Shown piece by piece: positions 1,483 to 13,739 of a stretch of DNA of 64,000 nucleotides (positions within the stretch are counted from its first letter, which is position 1; the number at the start of each line of letters is the position of its first letter). Source of the stretch: Microbacterium sp. MM2322 (GTDB taxonomy: Bacteria; Actinomycetota; Actinomycetes; Actinomycetales; Microbacteriaceae); NCBI RefSeq assembly GCF_964186585.1, contig NZ_OZ075067.1, positions 62,001 through 126,000 of the forward strand, in the 5' to 3' direction. Below the pieces are notes generated by a model. That model searched no databases. It saw nothing but the letters and a program-made list of their open reading frames with translations, and had not been told where the DNA came from. Made by a program: the position numbers and the translations under genes.

Positions 1483-2658
1483 TCAGACCTCGATCGGCCA
1501 GCCCGTGTACGCCTCGGCGAGGTAGGTGCTGCCGGCGCGGGACTCGACGACTGAGCGCAGCTCGCCGAGCTGGCGGCGACGGTCGAAGTCGGTGGCGTTC
1601 TCGTCGGCGTGCAGCATGCTCGTCATCCACCACGAGAAGTGCTGCGCCTTCCAGATGCGGCGGAGCACGGTCTCGGGGAACTGCTCGATGAGACGCTCGT
1701 CGTTTTCGAGAAGGAGCGCGCGGAGGGCCCGCTCGAGGACGATGACGTCGGCGATCGCGAGGTTCATGCCCTTCGCGCCGGTGGGCGGCACGGTGTGCGC
1801 GGCGTCGCCGATCAGAGCGACCCGGTTCTTCCGCACCTCGTCGGCCACGAAGCTCCGGAACCGCAGCACGTCGCGCTGGAAGATCGGCCCCTCGGTCAGC
1901 GTCGTGCCCGGGACGCGCAGCTGGAGCGCATCCCACAGCTGAGCCTCGCTGTACGACTGCGGATCGGTGTCGGGAGCGCACTGGAAATACATCCGCTGCA
2001 CGGTCGCGCTCCGCTGGCTGATGAGCGCGAACCCATCCGGCGAATTGCTGTAGATCAGTTCGTCGGCGCTGGGCGGGGCCTCGCACAGGATGCCGAACCA
2101 GGCGAACGGGTACTCGCGGAAGAAGCCCGAGTGTGTGCCCGACACGGCCTTGCGCACGACGCTCCGCGAACCGTCGGCGCCCACCACGACGTCCGCGACG
2201 ATCTCGAGGGGTTCGCCGTCGGCATCCACCGCGATGATGCGGGGATGATCGGATGCCGCATCCTCGACGCGGAGCGCGGTCACCCCGAACCGCAGGTCCT
2301 GACCCTGCTCGAGGCGCACCGCGATGAGGTCTTTCAGAGCCTCGTGCTGCGGGTACAGCCACACGCTCCGGCCGACGAGGTCGGCGAAGTCGATGCGGTG
2401 GCCCTCGCCGTCGAAGCGGAGCTCGATGCCGTGGTGCTCGTTGCCGACGGTCTTCACGCGCGTCGACGCCCCGGTCGCCTCGAAGGCGGCGACGGTGCCG
2501 TGTTCCAGGATGCCGGCGCGGATCGTGGTCTCGATCTGCTCGCGGGAGCGCTGATCGATGACGACCGACTCGATGCCGGAGAGGTGCAGCAGGTGCGAGA
2601 GGAAGAGGCCGGCGGGGCCCGCTCCGACGATCGCGACGCGGGTGCGAACGGTGGTCAT
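1483..2658 (-). CDS. pobA: 4-hydroxybenzoate 3-monooxygenase (PobA)
   Basis: Flavoprotein hydroxylase that makes protocatechuate from 4-hydroxybenzoate using NAD(P)H and O2. 391 residues against about 394 for known PobA. The FAD-binding GAGPAG is at residues 12-17, the second FAD motif DG (VVGADGSRSVVRKA) at about 157, and the GDAAHTVPPTGAKGMNLA motif at about 285-302. The ATG at 2658 is preferred because GAAGGAG lies 5 nt upstream; an in-frame start seven codons earlier lacks this. The product feeds the protocatechuate 4,5-cleavage operon at 5.2-11.9 kb. An IclR gene lies directly upstream on the same strand, with a palindrome between them. Confidence 0.95.
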   Translation of the reverse strand: MTTVRTRVAIVGAGPAGLFLSHLLHLSGIESVVIDQRSREQIETTIRAGILEHGTVAAFEATGASTRVKTVGNEHHGIELRFDGEGHRIDFADLVGRSVWLYPQHEALKDLIAVRLEQGQDLRFGVTALRVEDAASDHPRIIAVDADGEPLEIVADVVVGADGSRSVVRKAVSGTHSGFFREYPFAWFGILCEAPPSADELIYSNSPDGFALISQRSATVQRMYFQCAPDTDPQSYSEAQLWDALQLRVPGTTLTEGPIFQRDVLRFRSFVADEVRKNRVALIGDAAHTVPPTGAKGMNLAIADVIVLERALRALLLENDERLIEQFPETVLRRIWKAQHFSWWMTSMLHADENATDFDRRRQLGELRSVVESRAGSTYLAEAYTGWPIEV

Positions 2659-2730
2659 GTCGTCTCCTTCGACGGGCACGGCGGGGGTGTGGGATCAGTG
2701 TGATCCCGGTTCCGTGCGGCTACGGCAAGT

Positions 2731-2754: not shown

Positions 2755-3498
2755 TCAGCCCCTCAGGTCCGCCTCGATGCGCGCCGCGGCATCCTGCAGG
2801 GCGCGGACCGCCGCCGCCGGATCCGTCTCTCGCGGCAGCACGACCGACAGCGCGGCGGCGACGACACCGGCGTCCCGGATGCCGACGGCCACCCCGGTCG
2901 ACACGGTTTCGATCGAGCCGGGCGCGATCACGACGCCGGTCCGCCGAATCTCGGCGAGCAGGCGGCGGAGGGCCGCGGCATCCGTCACCGTCTCGGGAGC
3001 CAGCGCGCGGAGCGGGCCCGCAAGCACCCGCTCGCGCACGGGCGCCGCGGCGTGGGCGAGCAGGAGCAGCCCCGACGACGACGCGTGCAGGGGGAGGCGG
3101 CCCGCGATGCGCGTGATGTTGGCGCCCGCGTCGGGGTGCGAGAGCCGCTCGATGAACAGGGCCTCGTCGTTATCGAGCACGGCGAGCTGCGTGTGCTGGC
3201 GGATCGTCGCCTGCACGTCCTCCATGTGCGGGAGCGCCGCCTGCCGCAGCCGCAGCGCGAACGAGCCGCGGAGGGCGAGTTCCCACAGGCGCATGCCGAG
3301 ATGGATGCGGCGGTCCTCGTCGCGCTCCAGGAGTCCTGCCTCGACGAGCTCGTCGACGACCCGGTGCGCCGTCGACGGCGGCAACCCGGCGCGGCGGCCG
3401 ATCTCGGCGGCGGACTGCATCGACCGCTCCGCCGTGAAGGTCTCCAAGACCCGCACGATGCGGTCCGTGAGGGACTCGCCGGAGGGGGAGTTGGCCAT
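2755..3498 (-). CDS. IclR-family regulator, probable regulator of pobA
   Basis: 247 residues. An N-terminal winged helix-turn-helix (residues about 8-70, with SAAEIGRRAGLPPSTAHRVV as the HTH) is followed by an IclR effector domain (about 75-245; RIAGRLPLHASSSGLLLLAH and GVAVGIRDAGVVAAALSVV are typical). The ATG is the first start after the divergent promoter region; the frame runs much further upstream but as a GC artefact antisense to the next gene. The family includes PobR and PcaU, which activate 4-hydroxybenzoate and protocatechuate genes. Its position directly upstream of pobA with a palindrome between suggests the same job here. Confidence 0.88.
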   Translation of the reverse strand: MANSPSGESLTDRIVRVLETFTAERSMQSAAEIGRRAGLPPSTAHRVVDELVEAGLLERDEDRRIHLGMRLWELALRGSFALRLRQAALPHMEDVQATIRQHTQLAVLDNDEALFIERLSHPDAGANITRIAGRLPLHASSSGLLLLAHAAAPVRERVLAGPLRALAPETVTDAAALRRLLAEIRRTGVVIAPGSIETVSTGVAVGIRDAGVVAAALSVVLPRETDPAAAVRALQDAAARIEADLRG

Positions 3499-3540
3499 AT
3501 GGACAGGATGGCACGCGTCCCGCGGCGGTAGCCTCGGTCC

Positions 3541-4194
3541 ATGTCCGAGCCCCTGCCGATCGCGTCGTCGCCCGAGACGCCGCTGTCGGTGCAGGCCACG
3601 GCCGACCTCCTCGCCGGCACAGGGGCGCGGTGGTGGCTGTCGGGCGGAGCCGCGCTCGACCACTGGCTCGGCGCACCGATCCGGGGCCGCGCGAACACCG
3701 ACGTCAGCATCCTCCCCGGCGACGTCTCCCGGCTGGCCGACGCGCTGCCCGAGGGCTACTCGGTGTGGGCTCCCGCGGGCGAGGGCACCGTGACCCCGTT
3801 CGCCGACGCGGTGCCGGATGCCGACCTGCAACCGCTCCGCATCCGTGACGACCGTGCGGGCACCTGGGTGCTGCAGGTGAACGTCGAGGACGGCACCGAG
3901 AAGGTCTGGATGTACCGCCGCGATCCGCGGCTGCAGCTGCCCTGGGACCGCGCGGTCCTCGACGTCGGCGGCATCCCGACCGGCGCTCCCGAAGTGCAGC
4001 TGACGTGGAAAGCCCTCCGCCCCCGGCCCGAGGACGACGCCGACAAGGCCGCGGCGCTGCCGGCGCTGTCGGACGATGCCCGCGCGTGGTTCGAGCGCGC
4101 GATCTTGACCGTCCACCCGCACTCGACCTGGTCGATCCACGTCCGCAGTCCGTTCGCGCCGGCGAAGGCGAGCTGGAACCGCCGCACGTCCTAG
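3541..4194 (+). CDS. Nucleotidyltransferase-like protein
   Basis: 217 residues. WWLSGGAALDHWLG followed by R..NTDVSI (residues about 31-56) resembles the GG..A...G..R...D.D pattern of minimal nucleotidyltransferases (AbiEii and aminoglycoside nucleotidyltransferase-like proteins). The later LTWKALRPRPEDDADKAAAL (about 160-180) is the helix such proteins use to contact substrate. Substrate is unknown, and there is no partner gene that would make this an AbiE toxin-antitoxin pair. The start is leaderless-type: TAGCCT at 3529-3534, then 6 nt, then ATG. Its TAG stop shares the four bases CTAG with the stop of the convergent LysR gene. Confidence 0.72.
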   Translation: MSEPLPIASSPETPLSVQATADLLAGTGARWWLSGGAALDHWLGAPIRGRANTDVSILPGDVSRLADALPEGYSVWAPAGEGTVTPFADAVPDADLQPLRIRDDRAGTWVLQVNVEDGTEKVWMYRRDPRLQLPWDRAVLDVGGIPTGAPEVQLTWKALRPRPEDDADKAAALPALSDDARAWFERAILTVHPHSTWSIHVRSPFAPAKASWNRRTS

Positions 4195-5099
4195 CGGGCG
4201 CGGTACTCGCCCGCCGCGACCGCGGTGAAGACGAGCTCGCGGAACCAGCGCTGCGCGGGCGACAGGCCGGCTTCGGTGCGGGAGTAGATCGAGACCGGTG
4301 TGCTGGTCGCCGGCCACGGGAGTTCGGCGATGCGCAGCCGCGGGAACCACCCGCAGAACACCTCGGCGACGTGCCGCGGCAGCAGGACCACGAGGTCCGT
4401 CGTTTCGAGCACGGCGGGCACGGTCGCGTACTCCTCGACGGTCAGGGTCACCTGGGGCAGGAGGCCGCGCTCGATCATCGCCTGCAGCGGATAGACGTGA
4501 CCGCCGCGCGCCGACACCCGCACGAAGCGGCGCCCGGCGAACATGTCGTCGGCCGTCGACGGCAGCGGGTGGTCGCTCGAGGCGAGGGCGACGTACTCGA
4601 CGCTGCGGATCGGCGTTCGCCACAGCCGCTGCGAGTCGACGAGCGACACGGTCACGGCGAGGTCGACGGTGCCCCGCAGTAGCCCCTCCTCAACCTGGTC
4701 GGCATCGAGGCGCTCGACCTTGAGGTGCAGCCGCGGCGCCTCGCGCTCGAGCAGCGGCATGATCGGCGGGAGGAACGTCTGCTCGCCGATCGAGGTCAGC
4801 GCGAGCGAGAGCTCGCCCTCGAACGACGAGGCGTCGAACGCGTCGGGAGCGGTCACCGTCGCGTCGATCTGAGCGAGCGCCTCGTGGATCGGACCGAACA
4901 GCTGCTGCGCCCGCGGGGTCGGCACCATGACGTGTCCGTGGCGGTGGAAGAGGTCGTCGCTGAAGCGCTGGCGGAGCGATCGCAGGGTGTAGCTCACGGT
5001 CGGCTGGGTCACGTGCAGGCGTTCCGCCGCCGCGGTCAGGCTCCGCAGTTCGTAGAGCACCACGAACGTCCGCAGCTGGTTCAGATCGGCGAACGGCAT
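4191..5099 (-). CDS. LysR-family regulator of the protocatechuate 4,5-cleavage operon
   Basis: 302 residues. The N-terminal HTH (about 3-62: LNQLRTFVVLYELRSLTAAA then LHVTQPTVSYTLRSL) is followed by a two-lobed inducer-binding domain from about 90. It is divergent from the lig operon with a LysR box between them, so it is very likely its inducer-responsive activator; relatives (LigR, PmdR) answer to pathway intermediates. The ATG at 5099 is followed on the other side by the operator at 5102-5116, so the gene probably represses itself, as most LysR genes do. Confidence 0.9.
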   Translation of the reverse strand: MPFADLNQLRTFVVLYELRSLTAAAERLHVTQPTVSYTLRSLRQRFSDDLFHRHGHVMVPTPRAQQLFGPIHEALAQIDATVTAPDAFDASSFEGELSLALTSIGEQTFLPPIMPLLEREAPRLHLKVERLDADQVEEGLLRGTVDLAVTVSLVDSQRLWRTPIRSVEYVALASSDHPLPSTADDMFAGRRFVRVSARGGHVYPLQAMIERGLLPQVTLTVEEYATVPAVLETTDLVVLLPRHVAEVFCGWFPRLRIAELPWPATSTPVSIYSRTEAGLSPAQRWFRELVFTAVAAGEYRAR

Positions 5100-5101
5100 C
5101 C

Positions 5102-5167
5102 ATAGATCCCATCTATCGAGAAGCGGTGTCGAATCTATTGGACCACGACCTATCGCCGATCTACAGT
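5102..5167 (+). promoter_or_regulatory. LysR box and promoter of the lig operon
   Basis: ATAGAT-CCC-ATCTAT at 5102-5116 is a perfect palindrome and contains the LysR T-N11-A core (T5103, A5115). Downstream, TTGGAC (5138-5143), an 18-bp gap and TACAGT (5162-5167) form a promoter predicting transcription from about 5174. The palindrome centre (5109) is then at about -65, exactly where LysR proteins place their recognition site. A second ATCTAT half-site at 5133-5138 lies in the activation-site region next to the -35. Confidence 0.75.
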
Positions 5168-5218
5168 CAACGAAACGGCACCATCCGGCCGCGCTCCCCG
5201 ACGACGAGGACTCCCGCG

Positions 5219-6247
5219 TTGATCATCGACATCCACGGCCACTACACGACGGCCCCCGCGCAACTCGGTGCCTGGCGGGACCGCCAGATCGCGTTCACGG
5301 AGGGCACGGGCGAAGCCCCGGATGTCGCCGATCTGCACATCAGCGACGACGAGATCCGCGAGACGATCGAGGCCAACCAGCTGTCGCTGATGGATGCCCG
5401 GGGCATCGACCTCACCGTCTTCAGCCCGCGGGCGTCGTTCATGGCGCACCACATCGGCGATCTCGAGGTGAGCGCGACCTGGGCCCGGATCTGCAACGAC
5501 CTCGTCGCCCGCGTCGCGAGGCTGTTCCCCGACCGGTTCCTGCCGGGCGCGATGCTGCCCCAGTCGCCGGGCGTCGACCCGAAGACGACCCTCGCGGAGC
5601 TCGACCGGGCCGTCGACGAGCTCGGCGTCGTGACGGTGAACATCAACCCCGACCCGTCGGGTGGGCTCTGGACTGCGCCCGCGCTGACCGACAAGAGCTG
5701 GTATCCGCTGTACGAGAAGCTCGTCGAATACGAGCTGCCCGCGATGATCCACGTCAGCACGTCGTGCAAGCCGGTCTTCCACACGACCGGCGACCACTAC
5801 CTGAACGCCGACACGACGGCCTTCATGCAGCTGCTCAAGGGCGACCTGTTCCGCGACTTCCCCGACCTGACGTTCGTGATCCCGCACGGTGGCGGCGCGG
5901 TCCCGTACCACTGGGGGCGCTTCCGGGGCCTTGCGATGGCGCTCGGCAAGCCCGAGATCGAGGAGCACCTGCTCGGCAACGTGTTCTTCGACACCTGCGT
6001 CTACCACCAGCCGGGAATCGACCTGCTGACCGCGGTCGTCCCGACCGACAACGTCCTCTTCGCCAGCGAGATGATCGGCGCCGTCCGCGACATCGATCCG
6101 CGGACCGGCCACCACTTCGACGACACCCGCCGGTACGTCGACGCCACTGACAACCTGTCCGCCGACCAGCGCACCGCCGTGTTCGAGGGGAACGCGCGCC
6201 GCGTGTACCCCCGACTCGAGCGTGCGCTCGCGTCCCGCGGGCTCTGA
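5219..6247 (+). CDS. ligJ: 4-Oxalomesaconate hydratase (LigJ-type amidohydrolase)
   Basis: Adds water to oxalomesaconate (as its keto tautomer) to give 4-carboxy-4-hydroxy-2-oxoadipate. With the TTG start the protein is 342 residues, almost exactly the size of Sphingobium LigJ, and metal-site residues fall at His6 and His8 (HGH), His178, His223 and Glu284; from memory Glu284 is the residue mutated in the LigJ structural study. AGGA lies 8 nt before the TTG. A GTG at 5126 also opens the frame but lies upstream of the predicted transcription start at about 5174. First gene of the lig operon; ligK follows after 15 nt. Confidence 0.9.
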   Translation: MIIDIHGHYTTAPAQLGAWRDRQIAFTEGTGEAPDVADLHISDDEIRETIEANQLSLMDARGIDLTVFSPRASFMAHHIGDLEVSATWARICNDLVARVARLFPDRFLPGAMLPQSPGVDPKTTLAELDRAVDELGVVTVNINPDPSGGLWTAPALTDKSWYPLYEKLVEYELPAMIHVSTSCKPVFHTTGDHYLNADTTAFMQLLKGDLFRDFPDLTFVIPHGGGAVPYHWGRFRGLAMALGKPEIEEHLLGNVFFDTCVYHQPGIDLLTAVVPTDNVLFASEMIGAVRDIDPRTGHHFDDTRRYVDATDNLSADQRTAVFEGNARRVYPRLERALASRGL

Positions 6248-6262
6248 GAACCGGGAGCACTC

Positions 6263-6961
6263 ATGACCCAGCGCCTCAACGATCTCGGGATCGTCCGCAC
6301 GAACATCACCCGTCCGCATCCCGACGACGTGGCGAAGCTGTCGGAGTTCGGCGTCGCCACCGTCCACGAAGCCATGGGACGGGTCGGACTCCTCCGCCCC
6401 TACATCCGGCCCGCGTACTCGGGCGCCCGGATGTGCGGCCCCGCGGTGACCGTGCTGCTGCAGCCCGGTGACAACTGGATGATGCACGTCGCCGCCGAGC
6501 AGGTGCAGGAGGGCGACGTCCTCGTCGCCGGCTGCACGACCGAGAGCGAGGACGGCTTCTTCGGTGAGCTCCTCGCCACGTCGCTCGCCTCGCGCGGGTG
6601 CGCGGGACTCGTGATCGACGGCGGCGTCCGCGACGTGGCCGACCTCGAGAAGATGGACTTCCCCGTCTTCTCCCGCGCGATCAACGCGAAGGGCACCGTG
6701 AAGGCGACCCTCGGCTCGGTCAACATCCCCGTCGTCGTCGCCAACGCCCTCGTCACCCCCGGCGATGTCGTCGTCGCCGACGTCGACGGCGTGGTCGTCG
6801 TCCCGCAGGCCCTCGTCGGCGCGGTCGCTGACGCGTGCGCCGCGCGCGAGGCGAACGAGGAGTCGAAGCGCCGGCAGTTCCGCGCCGGGGTTCTCGGCCT
6901 CGACCTGTACAAGATGCGCGAACCGCTCGCGGCGGCCGGCCTGACGTATGTGGAGGACTGA
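6263..6961 (+). CDS. ligK: 4-Carboxy-4-hydroxy-2-oxoadipate aldolase (LigK/RraA fold)
   Basis: Cleaves carboxy-hydroxy-oxoadipate to pyruvate and oxaloacetate, the last step of 4,5-cleavage; such enzymes also decarboxylate oxaloacetate. 232 residues, the normal size. The class II pyruvate aldolase signature is present: Gly101, then Arg123-Asp124 ([12 protein letters not shown]), which hold the divalent metal and substrate in the RraA-like fold. It sits 15 nt after ligJ with its own GGGAG ribosome site and is followed one base later by ligI, so the order in the operon is reverse to the order of the reactions. Confidence 0.93.
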
Positions 6962-6962
6962 G

Positions 6963-7916
6963 ATGACGCTCACGGACGGTGCTCCCCACGGCTCGACGAG
7001 CGGCGGCTTCGAGAAGACCGCGGGCTGGCTCGACTGGTACGACGGCCCGAGCACACCGACGTTCCGCCTCCCCGCCGGGGCGGTCGACGCGCACTGCCAC
7101 GTGTTCGGTCCGGGTGCCGAGTTCCCCTACTCCGCGGCCCGCAAGTACACGCCCTGCGACGCGTCCGCCGATCAGCTGTTCGCACTCCGCGACCACCTCG
7201 GTTTCGAGCGGAACGTCATCGTGCAGGCGACGTGCCACGGCGCCGACAACAGCGCGCTCGTCGACGCGCTCCGCCGGAGCGACGGCCGTGCGCGAGGCGT
7301 CGCGACGGTTCGCGCCGACATCACGGATGCCGAACTCGACGAGCTCCATGCGGCAGGCGTCCGCGGGGTGCGCTTCAACTTCGTGAAGCGCCTCGTCGAT
7401 CGCGTCCCCACCGACTCGCTCGAGGCGATCGTCGCGAAGATCGCCCCCCGCGGCTGGCACGTCGTCATCTACTTCGAGGCCGAGGACCTGCCGGGGCTGT
7501 ACGACTTCTTCTCGGCGATCCCGACCGACATCGTGGTCGACCACATGGGGCGCCCCGATGTGACGAAGCCGGTGGACGGGCCGGACTTCGAGCTGTTCCT
7601 GCGCTTCCTCCGCGAGAACCCGAACGTGTGGACCAAGGTGACGTGTCCCGAGCGGCTCAGCGCCAGCGGTCCCCGCGCCCTCGACGGCGAGCAGCACGCG
7701 TACGTCGACGTCGTCCCGTTCGCCCGTCGCGTCGTCGACGAGTTCCCCGACCGCGTGCTCTGGGGAACCGACTGGCCCCACCCCAACCTCAAGGACCACA
7801 TGCCCGACGACGGGCTCCTGGTCGATTTCATCCCGCAGATCGCGACGACGGCCGAGCAGCAGCAGAAGCTGCTCGTCGACAACCCGCAGCGGCTGTACTG
7901 GCCCGAAGGAGCATGA
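6963..7916 (+). CDS. ligI: 2-Pyrone-4,6-dicarboxylate lactonase (LigI)
   Basis: Hydrolyses 2-pyrone-4,6-dicarboxylate to oxalomesaconate. It is a cytosolic amidohydrolase-superfamily enzyme that works without metal. 317 residues from the ATG at 6963, which has GGAGGA just upstream inside the end of ligK; a GTG five codons earlier is the alternative. Conserved residues are His44 and His46 (VDAHCHVFGPG), the RGVRFNFVKR segment at 134-143, His194 (VVDHMGRPD) and Asp270 (LWGTDWPHP), which matches the family's catalytic Asp. One base separates its TGA from the ATG of ligAB. Confidence 0.94.
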   Translation: MTLTDGAPHGSTSGGFEKTAGWLDWYDGPSTPTFRLPAGAVDAHCHVFGPGAEFPYSAARKYTPCDASADQLFALRDHLGFERNVIVQATCHGADNSALVDALRRSDGRARGVATVRADITDAELDELHAAGVRGVRFNFVKRLVDRVPTDSLEAIVAKIAPRGWHVVIYFEAEDLPGLYDFFSAIPTDIVVDHMGRPDVTKPVDGPDFELFLRFLRENPNVWTKVTCPERLSASGPRALDGEQHAYVDVVPFARRVVDEFPDRVLWGTDWPHPNLKDHMPDDGLLVDFIPQIATTAEQQQKLLVDNPQRLYWPEGA

Positions 7917-7917
7917 C

Positions 7918-9234
7918 ATGACGCTCGACAAGCCCTACAAGAACGTTCCGGGAACGACGATCTTCGACGCGGATCAGGCTCGCAAGGGGTATCACCTGAA
8001 CCAGTTCTCGATGTCGCTGATGAAGCCCGAGAATCGCGAGCGCTACCTCGCCGACCGCGAGGCGTACCTCGACGAGTGGCCGCTCACCCCGGCGCAGCGC
8101 CAGGGGGTGCTCGACCTCGACCTGAACGCGTGCATCCGCGAGGGCGGGAACATCTACTTCCTCAGCAAGATCGGCGCGACCCACGGACTGAGCTTCCAGC
8201 AGATGGCCGGCTCGATGACCGGGATGTCCGAGGCCGCCTACCGCGACATGATGATCGGCGGCGGGCGCCGCCCCGACGGCAACCGGCTGAAGGACCTGGA
8301 CGGGTGGGCCCCGCCGTCGACGGAGAAGTCCGAGGTCATGCGCCCCGACGCTCCCGCCAAGTTCACCTCGGCCCTGTTCACCTCGCACGTGCCGGCGATC
8401 GGCGCGGCGATGGACCTCGGCAAGACCGAGGAGCCGTACTGGAAGAAGGTCTTCGACGGCTACGAATGGACCCGCGCCTGGGCGAAGGAGAACACGCCGG
8501 ACGTCGTCATCCTCGTCTACAACGACCACGCCACCGCGTTCGACTCCAACATCATCCCGACATTCGTGCTCGGCACCGGCGCGCACTACCCGGTCGCCGA
8601 CGAGGGCTACGGACCCCGTCCGGTCCCCGATGTGAAGGGCTACCCGGAGCTCGCCGCGCACATCGCCCAGTCGGTCATCCAGGACGACTTCGACCTGACC
8701 CTCGTCAACGAGATGGTCGTCGACCACGGCCTGACGGTGCCGCTCTCGCTCGTTTTCGGCGACGTGGCGGAGTGGCCGTGCCGCGTCATCCCGCTCCCGG
8801 TCAACGTGGTGCAGTACCCCGTGCCGTCGGGGCGGCGCTGCTACGAGCTCGGCCGGGCGATCCGCCGCGCGCTCGACAAGTGGGACGGCCCCGCGCTCAA
8901 CGTGCAGATCTGGGGCACCGGCGGCATGAGCCACCAGCTGCAGGGTCCGCGCGCCGGCCTCATCAACGAGGAGTGGGACAACGCGTTCCTCGACCACCTC
9001 ATCGCCGACCCGCTGGGTCTCACCGAGTGGTCGCACATGGAGTACGTCGACGAGGCAGGCTCGGAGGGCATCGAGCTCGTCGACTGGCTCATCGCGCGCG
9101 GCGCGATGGACGATCAGTTCGGCGGGCAGAGCCCCGAGATGAACCACCGTTTCTACCATGTGCCCGCATCGAACACGGCTGTCGGACACTTGGTATTGAC
9201 CAACCCCACCGCATCCCAGGAGGACCCCTCATGA
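7918..9234 (+). CDS. ligAB: Protocatechuate 4,5-dioxygenase, alpha and beta subunits fused (LigAB)
   Basis: Extradiol ring cleavage of protocatechuate to 4-carboxy-2-hydroxymuconate-6-semialdehyde. The 438-residue chain is a fusion. Residues about 5-115 match the small alpha subunit LigA (LTPAQRQGVLDLDLNACIRE, GGNIYFLSKI). A linker follows, and residues about 148-430 match the beta subunit LigB. Iron-site candidates are His157 (FTSHVPAIG), His204 (YNDHATAF) and a Glu in GSEGIE (383-386); His339 (GMSHQLQG) is the catalytic base. In Sphingobium the two subunits are separate genes. The stop overlaps the ligC start (ATGA). Confidence 0.93.
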   Translation: MTLDKPYKNVPGTTIFDADQARKGYHLNQFSMSLMKPENRERYLADREAYLDEWPLTPAQRQGVLDLDLNACIREGGNIYFLSKIGATHGLSFQQMAGSMTGMSEAAYRDMMIGGGRRPDGNRLKDLDGWAPPSTEKSEVMRPDAPAKFTSALFTSHVPAIGAAMDLGKTEEPYWKKVFDGYEWTRAWAKENTPDVVILVYNDHATAFDSNIIPTFVLGTGAHYPVADEGYGPRPVPDVKGYPELAAHIAQSVIQDDFDLTLVNEMVVDHGLTVPLSLVFGDVAEWPCRVIPLPVNVVQYPVPSGRRCYELGRAIRRALDKWDGPALNVQIWGTGGMSHQLQGPRAGLINEEWDNAFLDHLIADPLGLTEWSHMEYVDEAGSEGIELVDWLIARGAMDDQFGGQSPEMNHRFYHVPASNTAVGHLVLTNPTASQEDPS

Positions 9235-10187
9235 CAGCCGGAAAAGTCCGCATCGCCGTCGTCGGCGCCGCCGGCGCGTTCGGGATGAAGCACCTCGACG
9301 GGCTCCGCAACATCGCCGAGGCCGAGGTGACGGTCGTCAGCGGCACGAGGCCGGAGTCCGTGCAGGCCGTCGCCGAGCAGTACGGCATCCCGAACGCGGT
9401 CGTCGGACTGGATGCCATCCTGGCACGCGACGACGTCGACGCCGTGATCCTCGCCACTCCCACTCAGCAGCACGCCGCGCAGACGCAGGCCGTGCTCGCC
9501 GCTGGAAAGCACGTGCAGGTCGAGATCCCGCTCGCCGACTCGCTCGCGGACGCCGAGGCGACGCTCGCCGCGGCCGAAGCATCCGGCCGCATCGCCATGG
9601 TCGGTCACACCCGCCGGTTCAACCCGTCGCACCAGCTCATCCACAACCGCATCGCGGCGGGCGAGTTCGCCGTGCAGCAGATGGACGTGCAGACGTACTT
9701 CTTCCGCCGCACGAACACGAACGCCAAGGGCGAAGCCCGGTCGTGGACCGATCACCTGCTCTGGCATCACGCCGCGCACACGGTCGACCTGTTCGCCTAC
9801 CAGGCGGGGCGCATCGTGCAGGCGAACGCGATCCAGGGCCCGATCCACCCCGAGCTCGGCATCGCGATGGACATGTCCATCCAGCTGAAGGCCGAGTCCG
9901 GCGCGATCTGCACGCTGTCGCTGTCGTTCAACAACAACGGACCGTTCGGGTCGTTCTTCCGCTACATCGGCGACACCGAGACCTACATCGCGCGTTACGA
10001 CGATCTCGTGACCGGCCGCGAGGAGCCCATCGATGTCTCGGACGTCGCGGTGAGCACGAACGGCATCGAGCTGCAGGACCGCGAGTTCGTCGCCGCGATC
10101 CTCGAGGGCCGCGAGCCGAACTCCTCCATCCGCCAGGTCATCGACTGCTACCGTGTGCTCGGTTCGCTCGAGGAGCAGCTCTCATGA
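9231..10187 (+). CDS. ligC: 4-Carboxy-2-hydroxymuconate-6-semialdehyde dehydrogenase (LigC)
   Basis: Oxidises the ring-cleavage product (as its hemiacetal) with NAD(P)+ to 2-pyrone-4,6-dicarboxylate, the LigI substrate. 318 residues, close to the 315 of Sphingobium LigC. It has a GFO/IDH/MocA layout: nucleotide-binding GAAGAFG at 12-18, VEIPLADS at about 97-104 in place of the usual EKP, and a C-terminal sheet domain with HHAAHTVDLFAYQ. The frame is open far upstream in another frame of ligAB; the ATG at 9231 is chosen because AGGAGG lies 6 nt before it and it overlaps the ligAB stop. Confidence 0.92.
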   Translation: MTAGKVRIAVVGAAGAFGMKHLDGLRNIAEAEVTVVSGTRPESVQAVAEQYGIPNAVVGLDAILARDDVDAVILATPTQQHAAQTQAVLAAGKHVQVEIPLADSLADAEATLAAAEASGRIAMVGHTRRFNPSHQLIHNRIAAGEFAVQQMDVQTYFFRRTNTNAKGEARSWTDHLLWHHAAHTVDLFAYQAGRIVQANAIQGPIHPELGIAMDMSIQLKAESGAICTLSLSFNNNGPFGSFFRYIGDTETYIARYDDLVTGREEPIDVSDVAVSTNGIELQDREFVAAILEGREPNSSIRQVIDCYRVLGSLEEQLS

Positions 10188-11161
10188 CGCTGCCCCGCAT
10201 GGGCCTCGGCTGCATGCCGCTGAGCCACGCCTACGGCATCCCTCCCGCCGCCGACGAGGGCGTCGCGATGCTGCAGGAGGTCATCGACCGGGGCGTCACC
10301 TTCCTCGACACCGCCACCCTGTACGGCGCGGGCAGCAACGAGCAGGTCGTCGGTCGCGCACTCGCCGGCGGCCGTCGCGATCGGGTCGTGCTCGCGAGCA
10401 AGGGCGGGATGGCGATCGTCGACGGCGTGAAGGTCATCGACGGGCGCCCCGAGACCCTGCGCGCGCAGGTCGACGCGTCTCTCGGTCGTCTCGGCGTCGA
10501 TCACATCGACATCTACTACCTGCACCGGTGGGACAGGCGCGTCCCCATCGGCGAGAGCGCCGGTGCGCTCGCCGAGATGGTCGCGGCCGGCAAGATCGGC
10601 GGCGTCGGACTGTCGGAGGTCTCGGTGGCGCGGCTGCGCGAAGCGCACGCCGTCACGCCGATCGCCGCGGTGCAGAACGAGTACTCGCTGTGGAGCCGCA
10701 ACCCTGAGCTCGGCATCCTCGAGGCGACGCGCGACCTGGGCGTTCCGCTCGTCGCCTTCTCGCCCGTCGCGCGGGGATTCCTCTCCGACGGAGTAGCCTC
10801 GCCGGGCGACCTTCCCGAGAAGGACATCCGACGGGGGATGCCGCGCTTCCAACCGCCGCACTGGTCGGCGAACGCGCAGCTCCTGCCCGCCTGGCGCCGG
10901 CTCGCCGCGGAGGCCGGCTGCACCCCGGCCCAGCTCGCGCTCGCGTGGCTGCTCTCGCGCGGCCCGCACGTCGTGCCGATCCCGGGCACCACGAGCGCCG
11001 CGCACGCGCTCGAGAACGAGGCCGCGACCACCCTCACCGTCGCGCCCGAGCTGCTCGAGCGCGCCGGCACGCTGATCGACACCGCGACGGTGTCGGGACC
11101 GCGCTACAACGAGACGAACGCCGCCGAGGTGGATGCCGAGTCGTTCGGCGACGCGGCATGA
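10184..11161 (+). CDS. Aldo/keto reductase of the lig operon
   Basis: 325 residues, (beta/alpha)8 NADPH-dependent oxidoreductase. The catalytic tetrad is visible: Asp42 and Tyr47 (LDTATLYG), Lys73 (LASKGGM), His114 (YYLHRWD). The C-terminal VPIPGTTSAAHALEN is the usual cofactor phosphate-binding segment. The ATG overlaps the ligC stop (ATGA), so it belongs to the operon, yet the known 4,5-cleavage route has no aldo/keto reductase step. It may reduce an aromatic aldehyde or a semialdehyde intermediate. Substrate not predictable from sequence. Confidence 0.85.
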   Translation: MTLPRMGLGCMPLSHAYGIPPAADEGVAMLQEVIDRGVTFLDTATLYGAGSNEQVVGRALAGGRRDRVVLASKGGMAIVDGVKVIDGRPETLRAQVDASLGRLGVDHIDIYYLHRWDRRVPIGESAGALAEMVAAGKIGGVGLSEVSVARLREAHAVTPIAAVQNEYSLWSRNPELGILEATRDLGVPLVAFSPVARGFLSDGVASPGDLPEKDIRRGMPRFQPPHWSANAQLLPAWRRLAAEAGCTPAQLALAWLLSRGPHVVPIPGTTSAAHALENEAATTLTVAPELLERAGTLIDTATVSGPRYNETNAAEVDAESFGDAA

Positions 11162-11856
11162 AAGCCATCTCCTCGATGGCGACGAAGGCGGTGCTGGGTG
11201 CGCTCGCCGAGGAGGCGGCCCGATCCGGTCATCCGCGGCTCGACATCGAATCCGTCGGGGGAGTGGATGCCGCGGAGCGAGTGCGCGCGGGAGAGAGGCT
11301 CGACCTCGTGTTCCTCGCGGACAGCGCATTGCGCCGCCTGGCCGTGGAGGGGCACGTGGTGCCCGAGACGGTGACCCCCCTCGTCCTGTCGCAGGTCGCG
11401 GTCGCCGTCCCGGGGGAGAGTGACGCGGCCGAGGTTCCCGCCGGCCCCGCGTTCCCCGACGCCGAGGGCCTGCGGTCGGCGGTGCAGGCCGCGAGGCGCA
11501 TCGGCTATTCGACCGGTCCCAGCGGGACCGCGTTCCTCGACCTGCTGACGGCCTGGGGCATGATCGATGACGTCCACGACCGCCTCGTGCAGGCGCGGCC
11601 CGGGGTGCCGGTGGCCGGCCTGCTGCGAGACCGCGAGGTCGATCTGGGACTCCAGCAGCTCAGCGAGCTGGCGGGGGCACCCGGCGTCCGGATCCTCGGC
11701 ACACTGCCCGCGGACTGCGCGATCGACACCGTGTTCTCGGGCGCGGTCAGCCGGTCGTCACAGAGCCCGGACGACGCCCTGGCCGTCCTGCAGTCATTCG
11801 CATCGGCCGCGTCGCGCCCGACGATCGAACGGCTCCACTTCGCTCAGGCCGGCTGA
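11158..11856 (+). CDS. Cytosolic ModA-like periplasmic-binding-fold protein, last gene of the lig operon
   Basis: 232 residues with no signal peptide and no lipobox, starting MKAISSMATKAVLGALAEEA. The pattern resembles ModA/PBP type 2 proteins (VRAGERLDLVFLADSALRRL, then GYSTGPSGTAFLDLL, then VDLGLQQLSELAG). There is no molybdate permease or ATPase nearby. The ATG overlaps the previous stop (ATGA), so it is translationally coupled to the aromatic pathway. A soluble ligand-binding fold without a transporter suggests an intracellular enzyme or effector-binding role. It overlaps the convergent amylosucrase gene by 13 bp. Confidence 0.75.
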   Translation: MKAISSMATKAVLGALAEEAARSGHPRLDIESVGGVDAAERVRAGERLDLVFLADSALRRLAVEGHVVPETVTPLVLSQVAVAVPGESDAAEVPAGPAFPDAEGLRSAVQAARRIGYSTGPSGTAFLDLLTAWGMIDDVHDRLVQARPGVPVAGLLRDREVDLGLQQLSELAGAPGVRILGTLPADCAIDTVFSGAVSRSSQSPDDALAVLQSFASAASRPTIERLHFAQAG

Positions 11857-13739
11857 ACGCGCAGCCAGCGGAACCCGTGGGCCGGAAGCTCGAGCCCGTC
11901 GGACAGGTCGGCCGCCGTGCCGTCCACGACGTCGATCGCCGTACCGTGGAACCCCGACAGGGTGACCGCGTCGATCGTCACGGCGTCGTCGCCGACGTTC
12001 GCCAGCACGAGCACCGAGCCCGCCGCGCCGAGACGCTGGAACCCGACGACCGACGGATGCGGCGTGTGGAACGGCGTGAGCGGGATGTCGGCGAACTCGG
12101 GGGTGCGCCGCCGCGCCTCGATCAGCGCCGTCAGTCGGGCGTGGATGCGCCCCGCGACCGTCGACGGGTCGTGCCGCGCGCCGAACGCCTCGGCATCCGC
12201 TGCGGGCCGGTGCACCCACCGGCTGTCATCGGCGTGGGCGGGGTCGTCGCGGTACGTGTAGTCGTTGAGCTGTCCGAGCTCGTCACCGAGGTAGAGCAGC
12301 GGGATGCCGCCGGTCGACAGCGCGAGCGCATGCGCCAGGATGACGCGGTCCTCACCGCCCGGGTCACCCGCTTCGACGCCGGCGAGGGACGCCGTGGTCC
12401 CCGCGATGCGCGCGTCGCCGGTCTTCGGGTTCTCCTGGAAGGGGACGCCGCGCGAGAACGTGCCGTCGAAGCGCCCGACGTAGAAGTCGTTGAGGAACCG
12501 GCGATGGGAGTATCCGTCGATGCCGAGGGTCGCGGCATCCTCATCGGCGAAGGTCCAGCCGATGTCGTCGTGGCTGCGGACGTAGTTCACCCACGCGGTG
12601 CCGGCGGGCAGGGCGTGGCGCTCGTCGAGCGCCTTCTGCAGCAGGCGGCCGTCGCGCGTCGCGAGAGCCTCCCAGCCGAGCGCCATCTGCAGCGGGTTGT
12701 AGGAGAGCTGGCACTCCTCGGGGGAGATGTAGGTGATGACCTCGTCGGGGTGGACGATCGCCTCGGACTTGAACAGCACCGACGGCGCGCCGAGCGTGAG
12801 CACCTGGTTGAACGCGCGCAGCAGGAGGTGCGCCTCGGGGAGGGACTCGCAGGCGGTGCCGAGGCGCTTCCAGATGAAGGCGACGGCGTCCATGCGGAGC
12901 ACCTCGACGCCCTGGTTGGCGAGGAAGAGCATCTCGCCCGCCATGGCGGCGAACACCGCGGGGTTCGCATAGTTCAGGTCCCACTGGAAGTGGTAGAACG
13001 TCGCCCAGATCCACCGGCCGTCGGGCAGCTGCACGAACGAGCCCGGGTGGTCGTCGGGGAAGATCTCGCGGACGGTCTCCTCGTAGCGATCGGGCATCGT
13101 GCGGTCGGGGAAGATCAGGTAGAAGTCCTCGTAGCCCGGCTCGCCGGCGATCGCCTTCTGCGCCCACTCGTGCTCGTTGCTCGTGTGATTGAAGATGAAG
13201 TCCACGACGAGCGAGATGCCCGCCTCGCGCAGGTCCGCCGACAGAGCGGCGAGGTCTTCCATCGTGCCGAGGCGGTCGTCGACCGCGCGGTAGCTCGACA
13301 CCGCGTACCCGCCGTCGTTGTTGCCCTCAGGCGCGGCGAACAGCGGCATCAGGTGCAGGTAGGTGAGGCCGAGCTCCTGGAAGTAGGGGATGCGATCCCG
13401 GATGCCGCGGAGCGACCCCGCGTACCGGTCGACGTAACAGACACCCCCGAGCATCTTCTCCGACAGGTACCAGCCGGGGTCGGCGCTGCGCTCCTCGTCG
13501 AGACGCTTCAGGTCGGCGGGTCGCTCCCGCCAGCTCGCCGCCGCGGCGGTGACGACCGCCGCGAACGCCTCCTGTCCGTCCTCGCGCTCGCCGTAGAGCT
13601 GGGTGAAAAGGTCGTGCAGCACGGGCAGCACCTCGGCCAAGCGGCGGTGGAAACCGGCATCCGTCCCGGCGAGCTCCGCCACGGCGGCGGCGGTGGCGAC
13701 GTCCAGATCGACGGTCGAGTGCGTGGTCAGACGTGCCAT
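11844..13739 (-). CDS. Amylosucrase (GH13 subfamily 4)
   Basis: Transfers glucose from sucrose to build an alpha-1,4-glucan, releasing fructose. 631 residues, typical length. A helical N-domain (to about 90) precedes the (beta/alpha)8 barrel. Region I is DFIFNHTSNEH (180-190). The nucleophile Asp284 is in EVLRMDAVAFIWK, the acid/base Glu326 in LFKSEAIVHPDEV, and the stabilising Asp391 follows His390 in YVRSHDDIGW; spacing matches the Neisseria enzyme (286, 328, 393). No signal peptide. GGGAG lies 5 nt before the ATG. It stands alone, with the ABC operon terminator upstream and the lig operon convergent. A sucrose hydrolase is the main alternative. Confidence 0.88.
   Translation of the reverse strand: MARLTTHSTVDLDVATAAAVAELAGTDAGFHRRLAEVLPVLHDLFTQLYGEREDGQEAFAAVVTAAAASWRERPADLKRLDEERSADPGWYLSEKMLGGVCYVDRYAGSLRGIRDRIPYFQELGLTYLHLMPLFAAPEGNNDGGYAVSSYRAVDDRLGTMEDLAALSADLREAGISLVVDFIFNHTSNEHEWAQKAIAGEPGYEDFYLIFPDRTMPDRYEETVREIFPDDHPGSFVQLPDGRWIWATFYHFQWDLNYANPAVFAAMAGEMLFLANQGVEVLRMDAVAFIWKRLGTACESLPEAHLLLRAFNQVLTLGAPSVLFKSEAIVHPDEVITYISPEECQLSYNPLQMALGWEALATRDGRLLQKALDERHALPAGTAWVNYVRSHDDIGWTFADEDAATLGIDGYSHRRFLNDFYVGRFDGTFSRGVPFQENPKTGDARIAGTTASLAGVEAGDPGGEDRVILAHALALSTGGIPLLYLGDELGQLNDYTYRDDPAHADDSRWVHRPAADAEAFGARHDPSTVAGRIHARLTALIEARRRTPEFADIPLTPFHTPHPSVVGFQRLGAAGSVLVLANVGDDAVTIDAVTLSGFHGTAIDVVDGTAADLSDGLELPAHGFRWLRVQPA

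Follow-up and report, generated by a model that had tools for sequence, protein, structure and literature searches.

Gene content of the operon and its neighbors

The window analyzed here, a stretch of 64,000 nt from Microbacterium sp. MM2322, carries a protocatechuate-4,5 (PCA) operon with the gene order LigJ, LigK, LigI, LigAB, LigC and aldo/keto reductase, whose last gene codes for a ModA-like protein (Table 1); no transporter gene was found in the operon. Sequence reading at position 11158 revealed an ATGA overlap joining the start of the ModA-like gene to the stop codon of the aldo/keto reductase gene. Similarity of LigJ to most of its relatives starts near 5216, as compared with the start at 5126 given in Table 1. 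The PobA-like hydroxylase is likely to be a feeder of the pathway.

Table 1. Features of the protocatechuate-4,5 locus in the window.
Feature	Coordinates	Strand	Remarks
PobA-like 4-hydroxybenzoate hydroxylase	1483..2679	-	Positional counterpart on the M. paraoxydans plasmid annotated as 4-hydroxybenzoate 3-monooxygenase
IclR-type regulator	2755..3480	-	Positional counterpart on the same M. paraoxydans plasmid annotated as IclR family
Divergent LysR-type regulator	4191..5099	-	Same place in L001-L011 and L014-L017 (L014 partial)
LigJ hydratase	5126..6247	+	PF04909; 61.8% identical to Sphingobium FldW, annotated as 4-oxalomesaconate hydratase
LigK CHA aldolase	6263..6961	+	TIGR02798, 398 bits, over cut-off
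LigI 2-pyrone-4,6-dicarboxylate lactonase	6948..7916	+	PF04909; 76% identical to the LigI-position amidohydrolase of an Acidovorax PCA cluster
LigAB fused protocatechuate 4,5-dioxygenase	7918..9234	+	NF009912, 876 bits, over cut-off
LigC-type CHMS dehydrogenase (Gfo/Idh/MocA-like)	9231..10187	+	68% identical to the Gfo/Idh/MocA gene of an Acidovorax PCA cluster
Aldo/keto reductase	10184..11161	+	PF00248; ATGA overlaps at both ends
ModA-like protein, proposed 4-oxalomesaconate delta-isomerase	11158..11856	+	232 aa; comparative evidence
Next gene downstream of the ModA-like gene	11844-13739	-	

Of the 18 loci retrieved by similarity search, 13 show the complete set from the LysR gene to the ModA-like gene. 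As for the remaining five, the visible part of L012 begins within LigAB, L013 is a short contig that carries the reductase and ModA-like genes, L014 has a partial LysR gene, L016 is without LigJ and LigK, and L018 shows PobA only. The aldo/keto reductase gene is kept in many PCA-4,5 operons (L021, L024, L040, L053, and L054), mostly with the ModA-like gene and in a single case (L040) together with PrpF, and it was not seen in the gallate loci L019 and L023; its role may be specific to PCA. Likewise, a DUF1932 protein, which may be a further pathway component, recurs near LigJ alongside either of the two isomerase types considered below (L021:9411-10343, L040:7192-8001, L042, L048, L050, L063, and L070).

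Family, fold and putative location of the ModA-like protein

The first-pass annotation had described the product of the last gene as a solute-binding fold, joined to the operon by the ATGA overlap and devoid of signal peptide, lipobox or accompanying transporter, and all of this is borne out by the present analysis. The protein matches PF13531 (SBP_bac_11) with 100.3 bits, against a cut-off of 25, over residues 4-225 (model positions 4-223 of 227). The Pfam profile search gave no PF04303 match, and the NCBIfam search gave no match at E 0.01, so that the TIGR01256 cut-off (62.5 bits) was not reached; three proteobacterial relatives scored 22-37 bits with this model, also below the cut-off. In a PDB profile search, every solved relative at E below 1e-6 was a molybdate-type binding protein, and comparison of the predicted model with known folds retrieved binding proteins only, among the matches listed. 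The family is large: scoring 8000 candidates gave at least 5754 matches at E 0.001, although proteins of other kinds may be among them. The gene is real, given the 91% identity of its product in M. oleivorans and its presence in 51 of the 55 genomes of the genus with LigJ (see below). In one further locus (L077, from G829; 7384-8103), the match to the ModA-like protein is split in two by an extra stretch, all in one open frame.

The N-terminus reads MKAISSMAT and the first beta strand of the predicted fold spans residues 2-6, which leaves no room for a signal peptide or a lipobox, export signals having been judged by eye from the sequence and the predicted strand. The genome encodes one other SBP_bac_11 protein, near 932 kb on the contig; it bears a lipobox and is followed by permease-like and ATPase-like frames. 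The two proteins differ at the positions aligned to the oxyanion-contact residues of ModA, which we take to be S12, S39, A125, V152, and Y170: the lipobox-bearing protein has S, S, C, V, and Y, and the ModA-like protein has A8, G35, S122, G149, and Q167, which are invariant in 81 of 81 sequences of this type. Additionally, E170 is the sole invariant acid in the QQLSEL loop.

An isomerization step without an assigned enzyme

In known pathways, 4-oxalomesaconate is isomerized by LigU or GalD and the product is hydrated by LigJ or GalB, according to the consulted parts of PMC12314914 and a table in PMC12997858. This isomerization is the step common to PCA, gallate and LigJ-only loci that lacks an assigned enzyme. 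A homolog of LigU or GalD elsewhere in the genome would have spoken against the earlier suggestion that the ModA-like protein fills the gap, but the profile for their family (PF04303, PrpF) gave no matches at E 0.001 in the 3,085,801 bases of the host genome.

Among 17 genomes bearing the operon, the host included, ten have no PrpF and seven have one or more. We read eight PrpF loci (L031-L038) with 6 kb on each side. One of them, L038, is a separate GalB-GalC-GalD operon at the same place as L027. Around the remaining seven there is no match to LigJ, LigK or LigAB, and their PrpF products share 32-35% identity with the GalD of L038. The Pseudarthrobacter strain with this operon, which also contains an extradiol dioxygenase-like gene, carries the ModA-like operon too, indicating that both isomerase types can share a genome, in different operons.

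Alternation with PrpF in the order and the phylum

An order-wide draw of 396 genomes contained 35 with a LigK-like match (E 1e-60), 30 of which also had LigJ. Nine of these 30 genomes have the ModA-like protein (seven beside LigJ and two elsewhere on the same contig), 19 have PrpF within 3.1 kb of LigJ, and two have neither. Two of the nine genomes with the ModA-like protein also contain PrpF, which is on another contig in G199 and in two copies in G406, one of them on another contig and the other (36% identical to the Sphingopyxis tautomerase) 10.4 kb from LigJ; this is the shortest distance among the nine genomes, none of which has PrpF within 10 kb of LigJ. Fisher's test gave p = 3.8e-6 when PrpF was counted near LigJ and p = 5e-4 when it was counted anywhere; these values are descriptive only since the genomes are related. 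The five genomes with LigK and without LigJ lack the ModA-like protein, and four of them have PrpF.

The phylum-wide draw yielded LigJ at E 1e-130 in only four of 396 genomes: the host, G652 (PrpF on another contig), G750 (PrpF beside LigJ), and G419 (neither). The LigK-LigJ loci L045, L046, and L073 come from genomes that lack both PrpF and the ModA-like protein (G117, G131, and G419, respectively) and may use a third isomerase or a different substrate; loci of this kind indicate that there is a third solution, that the gene is distant, that the substrate differs or that the step is dispensable.

Replacements within genera

The survey of the host genus covered 366 genomes, of which 55 have LigJ; the ModA-like protein is present in 51 of these 55 and PrpF in three. 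The co-occurrence with lig operons that the first-pass annotation proposed to look for is thus evident in the genus: of the 51 genomes, 46 carry the ModA-like gene on the contig of LigJ, at a distance of 2.8-6.2 kb, and five carry it on a different contig. Four of these five assemblies consist of 310-550 contigs, and in the fifth (G947; 20 contigs) the ModA-like gene is 0.6 kb from the contig start. None of the 51 genomes has PrpF within 10 kb of LigJ, and in G1020, with the ModA-like gene near LigJ, PrpF (34% identical to the Sphingopyxis tautomerase) is on another contig. The two other genomes with PrpF have no ModA-like protein: G814 has the same enzyme set in the order LigK-PrpF-LigJ-LigI-LigAB-LigC, and G1015 has LigJ-GalC-PrpF. 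The two LigJ genomes with neither gene, G961 and G1068, have loci cut by a replicon or contig end; LigJ of G961 has exactly the coordinates that it has on the M. paraoxydans plasmid, a record that stops within the dioxygenase gene, and the contig end of G1068 falls in LigC. A reduced arrangement was observed in G943 (L080, 7033-10612), with LigJ-LigK-LigI, a short LigA-like match and then the ModA-like gene, and no match to LigB, LigC or the reductase in the 14 kb read; by coordinates, G840 shows a similar spacing.

In a second genus, g15, both LigK and LigJ are present in 14 genomes. In 12 of these the coordinates place PrpF between the two genes and the ModA-like protein is absent; reading one such locus (L063) showed the order LigK-PrpF-DUF1932-LigJ. 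The other two genomes have LigK, DUF1932 and LigJ, with no PrpF (L048, which adds a dioxygenase-like gene after LigK, and L050), and contain LigI-LigAB-LigC-AKR-ModA-like elsewhere on the contig (L047 and L049); these are the only two of the 14 genomes with the ModA-like gene.

Plasmids and loci beyond the actinobacteria

Among the best 60 of 113 plasmid records with LigJ, a ModA-like gene lies within 10 kb in 31, PrpF in 20, both in none and neither in nine; PrpF partners were taken from the best 60 of 326 and the best 60 of 330 PrpF matches, and several of the records are near-copies. Scanning nine of the 31 ModA-like records over their whole length gave PF04303 matches in none of the nine. 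The plasmid relatives of the ModA-like protein are 42-49% identical to it. For plasmid LigJ proteins at least 67% identical to that of the window, among the matches listed, the partner is the ModA-like protein in 31 of 36 cases and PrpF in four, one locus being cut.

The nine records with neither gene include one whose replicon end falls inside the operon, three from A. vitis, and five others, from Paracoccus, C. zhejiangensis (p2), R. indicum (two) and S. mexicanum. Reading four of the latter five (L065, L066, L068, and L069, with only one of the R. indicum records) revealed neither gene within 8 kb of LigJ. In the one A. vitis record that was also read (L067), PrpF-like sequence occupying two reading frames occurs some 4 kb from LigJ; this stretch, at about 3209-4244, is beside LigK, and a further PrpF match occurs 68 kb from LigJ on the same plasmid.

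Outside the host lineage, the ModA-like gene occurs in whole PCA clusters of Acidovorax and Diaphorobacter, near LigJ in Methylobacterium, Variovorax and the actinobacterium Streptomyces, and beside LigJ alone in Sphaerotilus. In B. pyrrocinia and P. largidicola it is part of gallate loci with the order GalA-LigJ-LigK-ModA-like and no LigI or LigC nearby, and a role confined to PCA is rejected because gallate loci carry the gene. The exchange of one gene for the other in the same slot can be seen by comparing PrpF-LigJ-LigK-LigI-LigAB-LigC from Paraburkholderia caribensis with ModA-like-LigJ-LigK-DUF1932-LigI-LigAB-LigC-AKR from Acidovorax. For OTU4NAUVB1 (L022), we considered the use of a GalB hydratase and dropped it, since the N-terminus of the "metal-dependent hydrolase" resembles a lipoprotein signal and LigJ is 4.6 kb away.

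Distribution of the two partners on the LigJ tree

The LigJ tree comprised 53 rows. The label "with ModA-like protein" requires five changes on this tree, at least four of which are forced by well supported branches. Considering the ModA-like protein versus PrpF alone, there are five changes over 46 rows and three over the 42 rows with the partner in the same locus. Labels did not come from a plain gene in the same locus for L048 and L050 (ModA-like gene elsewhere on the contig), L074 (PrpF on another contig) and L067 (the PrpF-like stretch in two frames), and dropping these four is what lowers the fewest changes from five to three; the label "neither" of L068 derives from its 8 kb flank only. 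The loci omitted from the tree were those in which the sequence was too short or the stretch did not include LigJ (L012, L013, L016, L018, L026, L047, L049, and L052), those with no LigJ match (L027-L038, L062, L075, L078, L081, and L082), duplicates (L059, equal to L006, and L061, equal to L015), L014, and the cut loci L041 and L076. Shared operon ancestry explains part of the pattern of alternation.

Proposed function of the ModA-like protein and alternative explanations

Taken together, the position in the operon, the absence of PrpF, the repeated alternation at the LigJ locus, the gallate loci, the predicted fold and the replaced ModA motifs make it very likely, on comparative grounds, that the ModA-like protein is a cytosolic 4-oxalomesaconate delta-isomerase with a ModA fold, one that replaces LigU/GalD without being homologous to them; even enzymatic activity as such is something that we infer. 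Of the three roles put forward by the first-pass annotation, namely an unrelated tautomerase, a pathway sensor or a chaperone, the comparisons favor the tautomerase, the only one that would explain the alternation with PrpF, with the qualification that seven of the 17 operon genomes hold PrpF elsewhere, in one case within a separate GalB-GalC-GalD operon. Further points that weigh against this function are the PrpF genes of two of the nine genomes in the order-wide draw and one of the 51 in the genus, the LigJ genomes and plasmid LigJ loci with neither protein, and the molybdate-type binding proteins that make up all solved relatives at E below 1e-6.

We propose that this protein, with a type II periplasmic binding protein fold, would convert 4-oxalomesaconate, supplied by LigI or by gallate dioxygenase, into 2-keto-4-carboxy-3-hexenedioate, which would then feed the LigJ hydratase. 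The tricarboxylate would be held by the inter-domain loops SSMAT, GGVDAA, YSTGPSG and QQLSEL; most likely, it would be clamped between the two lobes while a single base shifts a proton along the allyl system. This would amount to a LigU-type 1,3-allylic proton shift, with keto-enol tautomerization as the alternative reaction. Judging from its conservation, E170 is the likeliest single proton shuttle, an assignment that we consider tentative and rather doubtful.

A non-catalytic cytosolic role, in which the protein would bind an intermediate (4-oxalomesaconate or a different one) and modulate either an enzyme or the LysR regulator, would be in agreement with the predicted fold, that of a binding protein, with the proximity of a LysR gene in many loci and with 4-oxalomesaconate being reported, in the consulted part of PMC12314914, as an effector of GalR. 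Such a sensor or co-regulator would nevertheless leave unexplained both the alternation with PrpF and the absence of PrpF coupled to the presence of the ModA-like protein in two g15 genomes, and Sphaerotilus keeps the gene beside LigJ with no LysR gene within 7 kb; we consider this explanation unlikely. It is likewise improbable that the protein acts on a different step (e.g., on CHMS, PDC or the aldolase product) or as a chaperone of LigJ, the alternation with PrpF simply being inherited with the operon lineage. Indeed, LigJ clades correlate with partners, and the LigJ proteins at least 67% identical to that of the window are mostly accompanied, among the matches listed, by the ModA-like protein. 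Nonetheless, gallate loci lack the CHMS and PDC steps, there are three to five partner changes on the LigJ tree, and both forms are found in whole PCA operons of one genus.

Public annotations present the protein as a true binding protein for molybdate or another oxyanion, in keeping with the SBP_bac_11 match, the ModA fold and the molybdate label given to pcaT in the figure legend of PMC8431788. We find this reading barely tenable and reject a function in molybdate transport given the lack of signal peptide, lipobox and suitable neighbors, the lack of an NCBIfam match at E 0.01, the invariant replacements at the positions aligned to the ligand residues of ModA, and the separate lipobox-bearing protein of ModA type with its permease-like and ATPase-like frames. 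Just as hard to sustain is that 4-oxalomesaconate isomerizes spontaneously and the gene is a passenger, despite the existence of LigJ without either protein in G117, G131 and G419. Deletion of galD in Pseudomonas sp. NGC7 led to a 15-fold higher induction of a promoter responsive to 4-oxalomesaconate, as if the compound accumulated (PMC12314914, consulted part), and retention of a passenger near LigJ across actinobacteria, Burkholderiales and Methylobacterium is hardly to be expected.

More generally, the cytosolic ModA-fold family probably constitutes, as far as its sequences and distribution indicate, a second and independently evolved class of 4-oxalomesaconate delta-isomerases, with several exchanges with PrpF-type LigU/GalD in actinobacteria and proteobacteria, and would form, with exported relatives sharing the YSxxxSG and QQxSEL motifs, a superfamily of allylic isomerases built on the solute-binding fold. 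If the proposed isomerase function is correct, it would supply the missing step of the protocatechuate-4,5 pathway in actinobacteria and of the gallate loci of Burkholderiales, would mean renaming many proteins that are currently annotated as molybdate-binding or substrate-binding, and would add a further case of a transport-protein fold turned into an enzyme. It would also bear on lignin engineering, this being a pathway by which soil bacteria break down lignin-type aromatic acids.

Comparison with known systems

The ModA-like protein would take the same pathway position as LigU, GalD and PmdU (PF04303), and in several operons its gene occupies the same slot beside LigJ, and yet the two types were never together at one LigJ locus, among the matches listed and the loci read. 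Their folds are unrelated: that of LigU/GalD/PmdU is diaminopimelate-epimerase-like, whereas that of the protein described here is ModA-like. In turn, it differs from the periplasmic molybdate binder ModA in having neither an export signal nor ModBC neighbors, and in the replacement of residues in the ligand loops by SMAT, GGV, STGPSG and QQLSEL.

A 62% identical homolog, PcaT (Asphe3_42410), is encoded by the last gene of the same operon in Pseudarthrobacter phenanthrenivorans Sphe3. In the part of PMC8431788 consulted, adjacent pathway genes of this organism are described as one transcript, and a figure legend labels pcaT as "ABC-type molybdate transport system"; this label was the only trace of the ModA-like protein, with no isomerase role, in a literature search that took in few subscription journals.

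More distant similarity was found to an SBP_bac_11 protein from a Cronobacter plasmid (L026:5794-6600) and its enterobacterial relatives, in which S6, G34, R41, YSxxxSG, QQxSEL, T191, and F193 are common to eight of eight sequences. In contrast to the ModA-like protein, to which they are 26-31% identical, members of this group have a signal-peptide-like N-terminus and other loop residues, and the one locus read (L026) has the organization MFS-SBP-LysR with no LigJ within 6 kb. The Cronobacter protein is possibly an exported isomerase of a tricarboxylate, and our guess is that the enterobacterial group is related to the aconitate isomerase of Pseudomonas sp. WU-0701, said to have been described by Yuhara in 2015. 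That enzyme is reportedly a periplasmic ModA-like protein that acts on aconitate, and its chemistry is said to be an allylic proton shift on an unsaturated tricarboxylate, the same kind of reaction as that proposed here for the ModA-like protein.
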